Assembly (NCBI RefSeq): GCF_900105125.1
Contig: NZ_LT629750.1
Coordinates: forward strand, 5,731,001 to 5,795,000
Source of the DNA: Bradyrhizobium canariense
Lineage (GTDB): Bacteria; Pseudomonadota; Alphaproteobacteria; Rhizobiales; Xanthobacteraceae
DNA: 64,000 nt
Reading direction: 5' to 3'
Below, piece after piece: positions 2,270-9,381 of this stretch. Positions within the stretch are counted from its first letter, which is position 1, and each line of letters begins with the position of its first letter. The notes beneath the pieces are model-generated. The model saw nothing but the letters and a program-made list of their open reading frames with translations, did not search any database and was not told where the DNA came from. A program made the position numbers and the translations under genes.

Positions 2270-3667
2270 ATGATGTTTGGCCAACCGTCCGGGAACTGTA
2301 TTTTGTCCTCCCAAACCATCGAAGAGCCGGCGCGGCAAATTCCGCTCTATGGCGAATATGAAGTGGCCGTGCTTGGCGGCGGGCCCGCGGGCATCGCGGC
2401 CAGCGTCGCCGCGGCGCGTGCAGGCAAGCGCACGCTGCTGATCGAGCGCTACGGCTTCCTCGGCGGCATGGGCACCGCGGCGGGGGTGACGAATTTTTGC
2501 GGGTTGCATGCCAATGTCCATGGCGAGATGCATCGCGTCGTGCAGGGCGTGGCTTCCGACCTGCTCGCGCGCATCGATCATCTGGGCGGGTTGAATGCGC
2601 CGCATCTGATCCTCGGCAAGATCCTGGCGCAGGCCTATGACACCGCGGCCTACAAGATCGCGGCCGATGATCTGCTCGCGCATCACAAGGTCGATATCCT
2701 CTTTCATGCGCTCGGCGCCGGCGTGGTGATGCATGACAAGAGCCGCATCAATGCGCTGATGGTCGAGACCAAGGCGGGCCGCCAGGCGGTGCGCGCCGGC
2801 ATCTTCATCGATTGCTCCGGCGACGGCGATCTCGCGGCCTGGGCCGGGGCGCCGTTCGAGGTCGGCGACAATGCCGGCAGCATGCTCTATCCCTCGATGA
2901 TGTTCCGTTTGAACGGCATCGATCCGGACAAGGCCGGCGAAGCCTGGCGGACCATCCCGGCGCTGATGGAGCAGGCGGAAGCGGCGGGTACGCATCATTT
3001 CCCGCGCAAGGCCGCGATCGTGCGGCCGCAGCGCTCGCAGATCGAATGGCGGGTGAACTTCACCCAGCTCGCGCGCAAGGACGGCACCGCGATCAACGGC
3101 CTCGAACCCGATGATTTGACGCGCGGCGAAATCGACGGCCGCCAGCAGGCGATCCGCGCGTTTGAATTTCTGCGCACGGTGCCGGGATTCGAGAAATCCT
3201 ACATCGTCGACCTGCCGCCGCAGCTCGGCATCCGCGAAACACGGCGCGTGGTCGGCGGCTATATGCTCAGCGGTGACGACGTGCTCGGCTGCGCCTCGTT
3301 TGACGACTCGATCGGCGTCAATGGCTGGCCGATGGAATCCCATGTCGCGGGCGACGTGATCTTCAAGTTTCCGCCGATCCCGGAATCGCGCGGCTTCAAC
3401 GAATTGCCGTATCGCATGCTGATCCCAGAAGGCATCGACAATCTCCTGGTCGCCGGCCGTTGTGCCTCGATGACCCATGAGGGTCAATCGGCGGCACGCG
3501 TGTCCGGCGCCTGCTTTGCGATGGGCGAGGCCGCTGGTCTTGCGGCGTCCTTGGCACTGGATGGCAATGCGACGCCGCGCGATATCGCGGTCGACAAACT
3601 GCAGAACGAATTGAAACAACAGGGCGCCTTTATCGGGCTCGATCAAAGCGTGCCCGTTGGGTTTTAG
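2270..3667 (+). CDS. FAD-dependent oxidoreductase (FAD_oxidored family)
   Basis: A 465-residue flavoprotein. The dinucleotide-binding motif VLGGGPAGIAAS is at residues 34-45, followed by LLIERYGFLGGMGTAAGV, the signature of the FAD_oxidored family (PF12831). The C-terminal part has the second FAD contact (NLLVAGRCASMTHEGQSAARVSG). No signal peptide is seen, so it is cytoplasmic. It is first in an apparent operon with a binding protein, ATPase and permease, which suggests it processes the imported molecule. The substrate is not predictable. Two ATG codons sit in tandem at the start (2270, 2273) without an obvious strong Shine-Dalgarno sequence. The gap to the next gene is only 10 bp. Confidence 0.85.
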   Translation: MMFGQPSGNCILSSQTIEEPARQIPLYGEYEVAVLGGGPAGIAASVAAARAGKRTLLIERYGFLGGMGTAAGVTNFCGLHANVHGEMHRVVQGVASDLLARIDHLGGLNAPHLILGKILAQAYDTAAYKIAADDLLAHHKVDILFHALGAGVVMHDKSRINALMVETKAGRQAVRAGIFIDCSGDGDLAAWAGAPFEVGDNAGSMLYPSMMFRLNGIDPDKAGEAWRTIPALMEQAEAAGTHHFPRKAAIVRPQRSQIEWRVNFTQLARKDGTAINGLEPDDLTRGEIDGRQQAIRAFEFLRTVPGFEKSYIVDLPPQLGIRETRRVVGGYMLSGDDVLGCASFDDSIGVNGWPMESHVAGDVIFKFPPIPESRGFNELPYRMLIPEGIDNLLVAGRCASMTHEGQSAARVSGACFAMGEAAGLAASLALDGNATPRDIAVDKLQNELKQQGAFIGLDQSVPVGF

Positions 3668-3677
3668 GGGCTGATTC

Positions 3678-4865
3678 ATGAATTTGAAATCGTTGCGGAT
3701 GATGTGTGCCACCTCTCCCATAGGGAGAGGTCGGATCGCATCGTATGCGATCCGGGTGAGGGATTACGGCCCAACGATAGACCTCAACCCCTCACCCCAA
3801 CCCTCTCCCAACGGGAGAGGGAGCGTTCAGTCGTTGCTGAGACATCGCAGCTTTAAAGCGCATCCCGGAGTTGCAAGGCTGATGTTGACGGGCCTGCTGG
3901 CGCTGACGACGATGGGTATCGCGCGCGCCGACGACCTGCTGAAAGCGAAAGTCGGTGTGCTGCGGCTGTCATCCTCGGCGCCAGTGTTCATCGCGCAGGA
4001 CAAGGGCTATTTCCGCGACGCCGGCCTCGATGTCGAGCTGAAATTCTTCGATGCCGCGCAGCCGATCGCGGTCGCAACCGCCTCGGGCGACGTCGATTTC
4101 GGCGTCACCGCGTTCACGGCCGGGCTTTATAATCTCGCCGGCAAGGGCGTGTTGAAGGTGATCGGCGGCATGAGCCGCGAGAAGGCGGGCTTTCCCCTGA
4201 TCGGCTATTTCGCCAGCAATAACGCCTATGCCGCAGGTCTCAAGACGCCGAAGGATCTCGCCGGCAAGCGTATCGCTGTCACGCAGGTCGGTTCGAGCTT
4301 CCACTATTCGCTCGGCCTGCTCGCCGACAAATACGGTTTCAAGCTCGGTGACGTAAAGGTGCTGCCGATGCAGTCGCTGTCGAATGCCGCCGCGGCGTTG
4401 AAGGGCGAGACCGTCGATGCGGCGCTGTTGCCGGTCTCGACCGCGCGCAAACTGATGGATGACAATGGCGCGAAACTGCTGGGCTGGGTCGGCGATGAAA
4501 CGCCATGGCAGCTCGGTGCGGTGTTCGCGTCGCCGAAAGCGCTCGCCAACAAGGCGCTGGTCACAAAACTTCTCGGCGCGCTGGAGCGTGCCGACCGCGA
4601 ATATCACGACGTGATCCTGGCTGCCGTTACCGACGGCAAGGCGCCGATCAATGACAAGACCAAACCGCTTCTCGAAATCATCGCCAAATACACCAACCTG
4701 CCGGTCGAGCAGGTGGTCGGTAATTGCGCCTATATCGATCCCGACGGCAAACTCGACGTCAAGAATGTCGCCAACCAGATCGGCTGGCTGCAGGAGCAGG
4801 GCTTTGTCGACAAGGGATTTACGGCGGATGCGATCATCGCCAAGGACTATGTGAAGCCGGATTGA
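3678..4865 (+). CDS. ABC transporter substrate-binding protein, NMT1/SsuA type, with in-frame palindromic insertion near the N-terminus
   Basis: A binding protein of the NrtA/SsuA/ThiY class (PFIAQDKGYF-like segment, here PVFIAQDKGYFRDAGLDVEL; later GKRIAVTQVGSSFHYSLGL). The native start is inferred at ATG 3678, with AGGGG seven bases upstream. About 47 codons (bases 3691-3837) come from an inserted palindromic element. Removing one TCGTTGC copy and the element between the copies restores a normal signal peptide (MNLKSLLRHRSFKAHP, then GVARLMLTGLLALTTMGIARA). Other possible starts are TTG 3834, preceded at 10 nt by GGGAGAGGGAG from the element, and ATG 3882, which lacks a charged n-region. 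It is followed after 3 bp by the ATPase gene. Product: periplasmic receptor for an unknown small organic anion, amine or sulfonate. Confidence 0.85.
   Translation: MNLKSLRMMCATSPIGRGRIASYAIRVRDYGPTIDLNPSPQPSPNGRGSVQSLLRHRSFKAHPGVARLMLTGLLALTTMGIARADDLLKAKVGVLRLSSSAPVFIAQDKGYFRDAGLDVELKFFDAAQPIAVATASGDVDFGVTAFTAGLYNLAGKGVLKVIGGMSREKAGFPLIGYFASNNAYAAGLKTPKDLAGKRIAVTQVGSSFHYSLGLLADKYGFKLGDVKVLPMQSLSNAAAALKGETVDAALLPVSTARKLMDDNGAKLLGWVGDETPWQLGAVFASPKALANKALVTKLLGALERADREYHDVILAAVTDGKAPINDKTKPLLEIIAKYTNLPVEQVVGNCAYIDPDGKLDVKNVANQIGWLQEQGFVDKGFTADAIIAKDYVKPD
3690..3837. repeat. Palindromic repeat element inserted in frame in a coding region, flanked by TCGTTGC direct repeats
   Basis: Three perfect small hairpins lie here, each with 9-bp arms and a 3-nt loop: ACCTCTCCC/GGGAGAGGT (3711-3731), GGATCGCAT/ATGCGATCC (3733-3753) and CCCTCTCCC/GGGAGAGGG (3801-3821). 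The block is bounded by TCGTTGC at 3690-3696 and 3831-3837. The distance between the two copies is 141 bp, exactly 47 codons, and the frame stays open. This fits insertion of a 134-bp element with a 7-bp target duplication. I recall similar CCTCTCCC-rich elements between genes in Bradyrhizobium; here one sits inside a gene. Confidence 0.75.
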
Positions 4866-7221: not shown

Positions 7222-8106
7222 ATGGCCCTTCCGTCCCTTCGCAATCTTCAGGTCTTTGAGGTTGCCGCGCGTCATCCCACGCTCCGCGCCGCTGCGGATG
7301 CATTGTTCCTGACCCACGGTGCCGTGAGCCGCCAGATACGTGCTTTGGAAGCCGAGCTGGGTGTTGCGCTGTTTACCCGCACCAAGCGCGGGATGGTGCT
7401 CACCCCGCAAGGCCAACAGTTGCAGGCGACAGTCGCGGAAGCATTGAAGTTGATGTCTGACGCCGCTGTGACACTCGGCCGAGACGCGACGAATTCGTCG
7501 GCACGCCTGACGGTCACGGTTCTTCCTTCATTCGCGACCCGTTGGCTGTTGCCGCGTCTGTCGGATTTCCAGTCTCGACATCCCGACATCGCAGTGGAAT
7601 TGATCTCGGTGATGGCGCCACTCGACCTCACGAAGAAGAAAATCCACCTCGGAATCCGCAATGGCGAAGGCAAGTGGGCCGGAGTCACATCGGAACGGCT
7701 GGCCCAAGAGAAACTGTTTCCCGTTGCGGCGAAGAATGGCATCGTTGGTTACGACAGACTGCCTCATTCCGCGCAGGAATTGCTCGAATATCCGCTGCTG
7801 AATCCTTACGACGACTGGCAGCGTTGGTTCGGCCGCGCGGGCGTGACCGCCCGCTTACCCCTTGCCGGGAAGACGTTCGACGATGCTAATCTGCTGCTTC
7901 AGGCCGCTGAGGCAGGCGAGGGCGTTGCTTTGGGGCGAAAGTGGCTGGTCGCCGATGCCCTGGACAAAGGAACCCTGGTTCGCCTGTCGGGACCGATGAT
8001 CACCTCGCTGCGCTCTTATTATTTGATCTATCCGGAAAACCAGCCGCTGTCGCCCCATGCGGAAGCTTTTGCCATCTGGATACGAGAGAGGATGAACGAC
8101 GGATAG
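7222..8106 (+). CDS. LysR family transcriptional regulator, GcvA-like
   Basis: A 294-residue regulator. The N-terminal helix-turn-helix begins LPSLRNLQVFEVAARHPTLR and includes HGAVSRQIRALEAELGVALF. The PSLRNLQVFE opening and the effector domain with PSFATRWLLPRLSDFQSRHP are typical of the GcvA subgroup. It is transcribed away from the lipocalin-like gene and likely controls it and itself through the inverted repeat at 7165-7185. The effector is unknown. Followed by a dispersed repeat and then the gentisate dioxygenase gene in the opposite direction. Confidence 0.92.
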   Translation: MALPSLRNLQVFEVAARHPTLRAAADALFLTHGAVSRQIRALEAELGVALFTRTKRGMVLTPQGQQLQATVAEALKLMSDAAVTLGRDATNSSARLTVTVLPSFATRWLLPRLSDFQSRHPDIAVELISVMAPLDLTKKKIHLGIRNGEGKWAGVTSERLAQEKLFPVAAKNGIVGYDRLPHSAQELLEYPLLNPYDDWQRWFGRAGVTARLPLAGKTFDDANLLLQAAEAGEGVALGRKWLVADALDKGTLVRLSGPMITSLRSYYLIYPENQPLSPHAEAFAIWIRERMNDG

Positions 8107-8215
8107 TGGTGAGCGCCCATCGGACAACTGGACGCAGGATGGTCAACGCTTTCGGGTGGCGCTCGCCGGACCTGGAAAAGCGGTCTGGAGCGTGATCCAC
8201 GATTGAGTTGTTTTC

Positions 8216-8330
8216 ATCATTGCGAGCCAACGGGCGGGCCGCAAAGCGCCGCCCGATGACAGGCGCCGCGAGGCAATCCAGAGCCACAAAAGAGCACTGG
8301 ATTGCTTCGTCGCTTCTCCTCGCAATGACG
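8216..8330. repeat. Dispersed palindromic repeat (TCATTGCGAG type)
   Basis: A 115-bp imperfect palindrome. The outer arms TCATTGCGAG (8217-8226) and CTCGCAATGA (8319-8328) pair, and inside GAGGCAATCCAG pairs with CTGGATTGCTTC. It fills the gap between convergent genes and may act as a terminator. It resembles a common Bradyrhizobium intergenic repeat (recalled, not searched). Confidence 0.7.
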
Positions 8331-8340
8331 GTTCGACAGT

Positions 8341-9381
8341 CTATGCGTTGCCGCGGTCCTCGCGGAACAGATCGAGCTTCTGCTGCACCGGGCGGTCGGA
8401 GAAACTGAACACCACGGAATCCTCGTCGGCCTCGTGGGTGACCCACTGCCAGCTCGGCACCACGAACAGGTCACGTGAGCCCCATTCGAAAGTCTGCTCG
8501 CCGACCCGCGTGCGTCCGCGGCCTTCGATCGCCGCGAATACGGTGGCGTCGGTCGAACGATAGCGCGCGGTCTTGAAACCCTTCGGCAGCAGCTGGATGA
8601 AGGTGCCGATGGTCGGCATCGCGAAGTCGCCGGTCTCGGGATTGGAGAATTTCAGCTTCAGCCCGTGACAGGCGTCCCATTCGTTGCGCGCCTTGGCATG
8701 CTCCAGCGCCTCGCGCGTGTAGCTGTAGGGATAGTTGAAGATCGGCGAGGTCTTGGAGACACGCTTCTGGTCGATCGGCAGCAGATTGTGGCCGTAGCGG
8801 GCAAAGCTGTCGCCGGCGGGGCGGGTAATCTTTTGCTGATCCTCGTTCGATCCTTCCGCGAACGACGCATCGAAAAACTGCACCATCGGAATATCGAGTC
8901 CGTCCAGCCAGAACATCGGCTCCGATGTCTGGTTGCTGTGGTCGTGCCAGGTCATCGACGGTGTGATCACGAAATCGCCCGGCTCCATTGCCGTGCGCTC
9001 CCCGTCGACGGCGGTAAACGCGCCCTTGCCTTCGAGCACGAAGCGCAAAGCCGATTGACTATGACGGTGCGCCGGCGCGACGTCGCCGGGGATCACCATC
9101 TGCACGCCGGCAAACAATGACGTGGTGATTTTCGATTGCCCGCGCAGCCCCGGGTTTTCCAGCACCAGCACCCGCCGCTCCGCTTCCTTGGCGGTGATCA
9201 GCTTGCCGGCTTCCGTCATGTAGTCGCGGATCGCGTCGAACTTCCACAGATGCGGCCGGCAGGCGCTCTTCGGTTCGGGCGTGATGAGATCGCCCATCAC
9301 GTTCCACAGCGCGGAGAGATTTTCGCCGTCGATCTTCTTGTAAAATGCCTCGCGTTCCGGCGTCTTCAGCACGGCTTCCAT
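8341..9381 (-). CDS. gtdA: Gentisate 1,2-dioxygenase
   Basis: A 346-residue bicupin ring-cleavage dioxygenase that opens gentisate to maleylpyruvate using Fe(II) and O2. The N-terminal cupin has the metal ligands in APAHRHSQSALRFVLEG (His105, His107) and TWHDHSN (His146, His148); the second cupin follows with EGRGRTRVGEQTFEWG and VPSWQWVTHEA. Length and both cupins match bacterial gentisate dioxygenases. It is divergent from the isomerase gene, and its promoter region carries the 21-bp site at 9414-9434 that recurs before the aryl-CoA hydroxylase. A fumarylpyruvate hydrolase, needed to finish the pathway, is not in this window. Confidence 0.93.
   Translation of the reverse strand: MEAVLKTPEREAFYKKIDGENLSALWNVMGDLITPEPKSACRPHLWKFDAIRDYMTEAGKLITAKEAERRVLVLENPGLRGQSKITTSLFAGVQMVIPGDVAPAHRHSQSALRFVLEGKGAFTAVDGERTAMEPGDFVITPSMTWHDHSNQTSEPMFWLDGLDIPMVQFFDASFAEGSNEDQQKITRPAGDSFARYGHNLLPIDQKRVSKTSPIFNYPYSYTREALEHAKARNEWDACHGLKLKFSNPETGDFAMPTIGTFIQLLPKGFKTARYRSTDATVFAAIEGRGRTRVGEQTFEWGSRDLFVVPSWQWVTHEADEDSVVFSFSDRPVQQKLDLFREDRGNA

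Follow-up and report, generated by a model that had tools for sequence, protein, structure and literature searches.

The window analysed here, a 64,000-nucleotide stretch of the Bradyrhizobium canariense genome (contig NZ_LT629750.1), contains on its forward strand a 395-aa ORF for a NitT/TauT-type ABC substrate-binding protein (SBP; NMT1, PF09084), which is open from ATG 3678 and spans 3678..4865. It is preceded on the same strand by the gene of an FAD-dependent oxidoreductase (2270..3667; Pfam match PF12831), whose stop codon TAG occupies 3665-3667, and is followed by an ABC ATPase gene and then a permease-like ORF, both of which are open; the Pfam assignments extend as far as the ATPase gene. 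No sigma-70-like promoter, the promoter type covered by the search, and no intrinsic terminator was found at the locus.

Close to its beginning, the binding-protein ORF reads through a block of hairpins, in agreement with an earlier first-pass annotation that the gene had been kept open. The same annotation had described three hairpins with 9-bp arms, all of which are present within a base or two of the positions given there. According to sequence and fold, hairpin 1 (ACCTCTCCC-ATA-GGGAGAGGT, 3711..3731) and hairpin 3 (CCCTCTCCC-AAC-GGGAGAGGG, 3801..3821) have perfect 9-bp arms, but the middle one, hairpin 2 (CGGATCGCAT-CGT-ATGCGATCCG, 3732..3754), has perfect 10-bp arms. None of 200 shuffles folded as well as the block, either as DNA (143 nt; z -7.3) or as RNA (233 nt; z -4.75).

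The block is a dispersed repeat. With 3690-3837 as query, BLAST returned 60 matches at E <= 10 within the genome itself (7.84 Mb, one contig), of which some are partial and some run in the opposite sense, as expected of a palindrome. A core at 3710..3821 (forward strand), apparently an inverted pair of triplex-type motifs, was delimited by aligning the copies and profiling their conservation. Among the aligned copies, conservation sets in abruptly at about 3709-3710 (TCACCTCTCCC) and reaches roughly 25-40 nt beyond 3821; past the last hairpin the copies continue AGCGCACTNCCGTTGC..CATCGA, and some extend to AATGCTTCAATC. This right tail (AGC..CGTTGC..CATCG..GCTT; 3822..3857, forward strand), which was also traced by alignment with three related genomes, G173, G177 and G031, decays towards an approximate far end and now encodes SVQSLLRHRSF(K), a basic n-region.

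The core resembles the PIT/TM motif of E. coli (TMECO; PMC4666352, citing Hoyne et al.). In E. coli, intrastrand-triplex repeats are reported to occur as type A, with the linker TTA, and type B, with the linker CCG, and five cases of inverted A+B pairs are described (PMC4666352). In the window, the reverse strand of 3789..3820 is an exact match to a type-A-like pattern, CCTCTCCC-GTT-GGGAGAGGG-TTG-GGGTGAGGG, and a slightly shortened form of this pattern (CCTCTCCC-loop-GGGAGAGGG-TTN-GGGTGAGGG) has 8 exact matches in the genome and 0 in a backward control. The right motif is thus A-like, and the left motif is B-like only if its linker is allowed to be expanded by hairpin 2. Judged by these patterns, the element appears to be an inverted PIT/TM-type pair whose left linker has gained an additional hairpin.

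The first-pass annotation had interpreted the block as a recent palindromic insertion into signal-peptide codons, bounded by the two copies of TCGTTGC that would represent a 7-bp target duplication. The two copies exist, at 3690..3696 and 3831..3837 (forward strand), and their spacing of 141 bp is confirmed; a plausible signal peptide remains without the block, and the upstream ATG lies about where relatives with a short spacer start the gene. The copies do not bound the repeat, however, since the right one lies within its conserved tail and the left one 12-13 nt beyond its conserved edge. Register counts point the same way. They used 62 unique full-length copies from the retrieved loci, 58 of them elsewhere than this locus, and scored agreement with TCGTTGC at five or more of the seven positions: 32 of 58 copies agreed in the right register versus 7 of 58 in a control register, and 14 of 58 in the left register versus 16 of 58 in its control. 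One other copy (L216) had suggested that the left TCGTTGC might also be part of the repeat, a proposal that we dropped as its register does no better than control. Exact 7-mers common to both flanks are not rare: they occur in 6 of 58 other copies, and mispaired flanks yield a mean of 3.6, with 70 of 500 shuffles as high. Because the right copy belongs to the repeat and the left copy does not, the pair is no target duplication, a feature that would also mark a MITE. A single TCGTTGC had been anticipated in relatives, but the 250 nt preceding the mature region contain none at any of 109 orthologue loci, these loci being two overlapping sets in which some genomes are counted twice.

Further evidence comes from the spacer between the oxidoreductase and binding-protein genes (FAD-SBP spacer) in related genomes. 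A search with window positions 3560-4200 matched 260 of 265 genomes of the genus at 1e-20, and among the matches listed, G031, G177 and G173 alone align through the repeat. Similarly, three of 80 named loci carry it in the spacer, namely L129 (Bradyrhizobium sp. dw_411), L091 (MAG AP_2) and L169 (MAG LY.8), which we judged to be the same three genomes. In all three, the repeat sits intergenically at the same site and is followed by an intact Shine-Dalgarno (SD) sequence and ATG (GGAGAAACTGG-ATG in G031, CGGAGGAAACCTG-ATG in G177 and GAGAGGAAACTGG-ATG in G173) that closely resemble the GGAGGAAACNGG-ATG of relatives with an empty site; in the window, it lies inside the ORF if ATG 3678 is the start. 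In addition, an in-frame ATG lies 30-35 residues ahead of the anchor motif in 29 of 29 other loci, where the script took an ATG wherever one was present, which bears out the short signal peptide that had been expected of orthologues. As three relatives keep their SD-ATG after the repeat and all 29 offer an ATG, we conclude from these comparisons that the repeat was ancestrally intergenic at this locus. A recent insertion into signal-peptide codons, which conflicts with the same repeat upstream of a retained SD-ATG in these three genomes, appears highly improbable.

The spacer also harbours other palindromic repeats in further relatives, one type (GTCCCTGCG..CGCAGGGAC) at L035/L209, L207 and L208 and yet another (GTCCCGGC..GCCGGGAC) at L033, and it contains a diverged triplex-like pair (CACCTCTCCTGC..GGAGAGGGGG) at L058 (genome G006), which is sister to G031 in the tree. 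Repeats thus seem to have landed in this short spacer more than once.

What distinguishes the window from the three relatives is the DNA that follows the repeat. Between the last GGGAGAGGG and the mature anchor it has 129 nt versus 168, 175 and 174, so that the distance from repeat to mature protein is reduced by 39-46 bp and the native ATG is missing; by comparison with the same relatives, the absent stretch held the native SD, the ATG and the first codons. A native part of the signal peptide (KAHPGVARLMLTGLLALTTMGIARA; 3855..3929, forward strand) is retained, as is evident from the relatives and from P0001 and P0003 (MKLWRRARPGYA..). At this junction the window reads ..SLLRHRSFKAHPGVARLMLTGLL.., and its nearest neighbours in the protein tree (P0001, P0002, P0003, P0005 and P0007, at best 96% across the mature part) have MKLWRRARPGYA[WR]L... 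The alignment indicates that native sequence persists from about K60/A61 onwards, that the preceding SLLRHRSF is repeat tail, and that the segment earlier taken as the native n-region is repeat DNA. The signal peptide MNLKSLLRHRSF that the first-pass annotation had restored by removing the block is accordingly not ancestral, its LLRHRSF being translated repeat tail. By eye, the retained signal peptide is likely cut before DD.

These data are compatible with a model that we consider probable as a whole, in which an old intergenic PIT/TM-type repeat became coding when the adjacent gene lost its native start and came to be translated through the repeat. In the starting state, the repeat would have lain between the oxidoreductase and the binding-protein gene. 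The native SD, ATG and first codons would then have been lost via a deletion or a recombination joint, and the open frame would have permitted translation through the repeat, with ATG 3678 as the likeliest start. With either of the two starts considered below, the repeat tail (..LLRHRSF) would supply a basic n-region ahead of the native hydrophobic core; cleavage by signal peptidase would then take off every repeat-encoded residue and leave the mature protein unchanged. The binding-protein frame is open back through the repeat in G031 and G173 despite their native ATG, and is closed by a stop in G177; with the frame already open, a single step that removed the start could join the repeat to the gene. 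The locus looks like former spacer DNA that has become coding, not like an element newly inserted.

The start loss is deduced from relatives at 84-86% DNA identity, and a recombination joint in place of a deletion is possible, because locus L092, within the window's own clade, has an empty site and the closest proteins are known as protein only. Ranks by DNA identity differ between the two neighbouring genes: G173 is first of 79 for the FAD gene (85.8%) and 10th of 80 for the SBP gene, G031 is 18th and 23rd, and G177 is 13th and 67th, respectively, differences that hint weakly at recombination at the repeat. The flanks of triplex-type repeats in E. coli are reported to vary much more than controls (PMC4666352), and this instability was counted in favour of the start-loss account.

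That the frame is open through the repeat is not remarkable in itself. The binding-protein ORF is one case among 29 own-genome loci that were taken for copies in genes (two overlapping loci dropped), 16 of them with a full-length copy. Read in three frames each, these 16 copies are open in 15 of 48 readings and 14 copies in the relative G173 in 11 of 42, and the open frames are spread over all three; likewise, a length divisible by three, as between the two TCGTTGC copies, is a 1-in-3 event by chance. Frame openness of about one in three, which moreover pre-existed in two relatives, gives no sign of selection. ORFs of at least 80 aa span 8 of the 16 full-length copies, the binding-protein ORF included. 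A Pfam scan of one ORF each at six of the seven other spanned copies (L007 left out) gave no match, and these six spanning ORFs look mechanical, so that among the 16 copies a recognisable gene was found only at the binding-protein locus, with the ORF of L007 outside the scan. Among predicted proteins, the repeat lies at the N-termini of P0123 and P0124 (predicted Zn/Mn transport substrate-binding proteins) and of P0125 (a short-chain dehydrogenase), possibly through over-extended gene calls. P0122, a predicted protein of 285 aa, is made up of about three tandem copies of the repeat translation and is probably not a real protein. Elsewhere in the window, at 8000-8474, ORFs reading RRSDEAIQ / HCEEKRRSN give the impression of translations of another dispersed repeat.

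Two environmental orthologues appear to share the arrangement. The predicted N-termini of P0110 (396 aa) and P0121 (413 aa) run MNLNS..-repeat-..ARLALA, with no Met near the core, and these two are the only exceptions among 120 proteins with the anchor motif, the other 118 having 24-43 residues before it; the protein search behind this comparison listed 120 of 3698 matches. Both are known as predicted proteins whose starts are the choice of a gene caller, P0121 was sought with P0110's own N-terminus, and searching at the protein level is biased towards in-frame cases. For most of the repeat, the frame used in P0110 and P0121 is not that of the window. In a tree of 44 mature proteins, the window shares a 98/98 clade with 19 native-start rows; at least two changes of fusion state, gains or losses, are forced by the starred forks, although recombination may mix histories. 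A single fusion event for all three was considered in view of a common tail signature (..[AS]F.., by eye) and set aside, as the tree needs at least two changes; one gain plus a loss, or recombination, is possible. A search of the 265 genus genomes for the DNA behind P0121 gave no complete match (best 87%), and none of 54 candidate proteins matched window residues 1-80 at E <= 10. We tentatively raise the further idea that a triplex-prone and deletion-prone repeat upstream of a secreted protein's gene replaced the start and n-region more than once in this orthologue, and that repeats of this class recurrently give exported proteins new N-termini that are hidden by cleavage.

Three start codons are candidates in the window, all on the forward strand, and they can be compared with the ATG starts of 29 relatives, whose SD energies average -9.4 kcal/mol (range -14.7 to -5.6). 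ATG 3678..3680 lies 10 nt after the upstream stop and has an SD energy of -6.9; TTG 3834..3836 reaches -9.2 through the arm of hairpin 3; and starting at ATG 3882..3884 (-6.4) would shorten the signal peptide to 16 residues and deprive it of a basic n-region. On the N-termini of P0110 and P0121, ATG 3678 is narrowly favoured as the start used, although its SD is weaker than the relatives' mean and its 84-residue leader would be unusually long. As the first-pass annotation had noticed, the last hairpin arm could indeed act as an SD for TTG 3834, with an energy close to the relatives' mean, and initiation there would yield MLRHRSFKAHPGVARLML.., a signal peptide of normal length, with Leu kept at this position in P0110 (by eye). 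The repeat would then be a 5' UTR that provides the SD, and hairpin 3 could tune initiation by hiding it. Against this speak the burial of the SD in a perfect 9-bp hairpin stem, the long spacing of 11 nt, the ATG offered by 29 of 29 relatives and the Ser that P0121 has at the aligned position (by eye); this Ser, together with the lack of a Met near the core in both orthologues, favours initiation upstream of or within the repeat. Use of TTG 3834 with the hairpin arm as SD seems to us a possible but doubtful alternative, and its regulatory version, with hairpin 3 tuning initiation, slightly more doubtful still.

The loss of the native SD and ATG could also mean that the gene is no longer properly expressed and its product no longer exported, so that decay has begun and the open frame is coincidental. 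Frame openness at the chance level, pre-existing in G031 and G173, and the absence of a sigma-70-like site in the promoter search fit such decay. The mature region, however, is intact, its end branch is short (0.015 versus a tree median of 0.032), and of the few private changes of the window, four are synonymous and one is non-synonymous, where the N:S opportunity is 3.0 (binomial about 0.016). Summed over the remaining 100 rows, there are 104 synonymous and 102 non-synonymous changes, from which the window is not clearly different. The mature protein looks constrained, subject to the small number of five private changes. With the ATPase and permease-like ORFs open downstream and a similar arrangement in P0110 and P0121, incipient decay appears unlikely.

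Discussion

Taken together, the analysis points to a known kind of intergenic repeat whose coding fate is unusual and apparently repeated. It outlines a route from an intergenic palindromic repeat to protein that proceeds by the loss of the adjacent gene's own start, with no jump into the gene, and signal peptides may be an easy site for such fusions because the repeat-encoded part is cut off. Furthermore, it links the instability reported around E. coli triplex-type repeats to a possible coding consequence in another bacterial class, at a locus that is compact and testable. A literature search, judged by titles and the beginnings of abstracts, found no report of repeat-derived signal peptides.

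Several known systems share features with the element. Like REP/REPIN sequences, it consists of short inverted palindromes in many copies, but by eye neither strand of 3701-3860 contains a GTAG or CGTC tag. Mobilisation by a RAYT was considered and found no support, since the only Y1_Tnp-family match of the genome (L171, G000:C1:3794590-3794916; 24.5 bits) has no repeat copy in its 3.3-kb locus. Br-REP1 and Br-REP2 of Bradyrhizobium japonicum, as given in PMC5082802, are stem-loop repeats of the same genus whose consensus sequences differ. The left half of the element, made up of two hairpins and GGGTGAGG, can be aligned with the full 56-position model of Rfam whalefall-1 (RF01762), a putative metagenome RNA (PMC2864571), with a score of 33.2 bits at 3709-3763, under the gathering cut-off of 37. 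Seven further matches below the cut-off lie in seven of 17 other loci (L062, L068, L175, L176, L178, L181 and L003). An RNA gene was rejected with whalefall-1 as the sole match, below cut-off; conversely, whalefall-1 may itself be a triplex-type DNA repeat.

In-frame palindromic elements have been reported before in Rickettsia (PMC10969869, PMC3733652), and the first-pass annotation had drawn this parallel. Both cases involve a palindromic repeat of about 100-150 bp read in frame inside a gene. Compared with the Rickettsia elements as described in PMC10969869, the window repeat is not seen in many genes (a recognisable one was found for 1 of 16 full-length own copies), has no fixed frame, as the different reading in P0110 and P0121 demonstrates, and lies outside the gene in three relatives. 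The analogy fails on these points, and the mechanisms of the Rickettsia cases and of the fusion proposed here differ.

The closest likeness is to PIT/TM, with which the element shares the CCCTCTCCC-loop-GGGAGAGGG-linker-GGGTGAGGG core and the dispersal, and also the inverted pairs if the hairpin-expanded left linker is allowed. A BLAST search of E. coli with 3705-3830 at E <= 10 gave matches in 4846 of 5426 genomes, the eight listed reaching E values of 8e-3 to 3e-2 and 81-83% identity over about 3780-3830, and no E. coli record had a place covering 80% of the query. For E. coli, PMC4666352 reports a stable triplex in vitro and in vivo data that lend no support to its stable formation. The window element differs from PIT/TM in its linker, TTG in place of the TTA of type A, in the extra hairpin in the linker of its left motif, and in its repeat tail of 25-40 nt. 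Furthermore, E. coli PIT/TM copies are reported to be always intergenic (PMC4666352), whereas the copy in the window lies within a reading frame.
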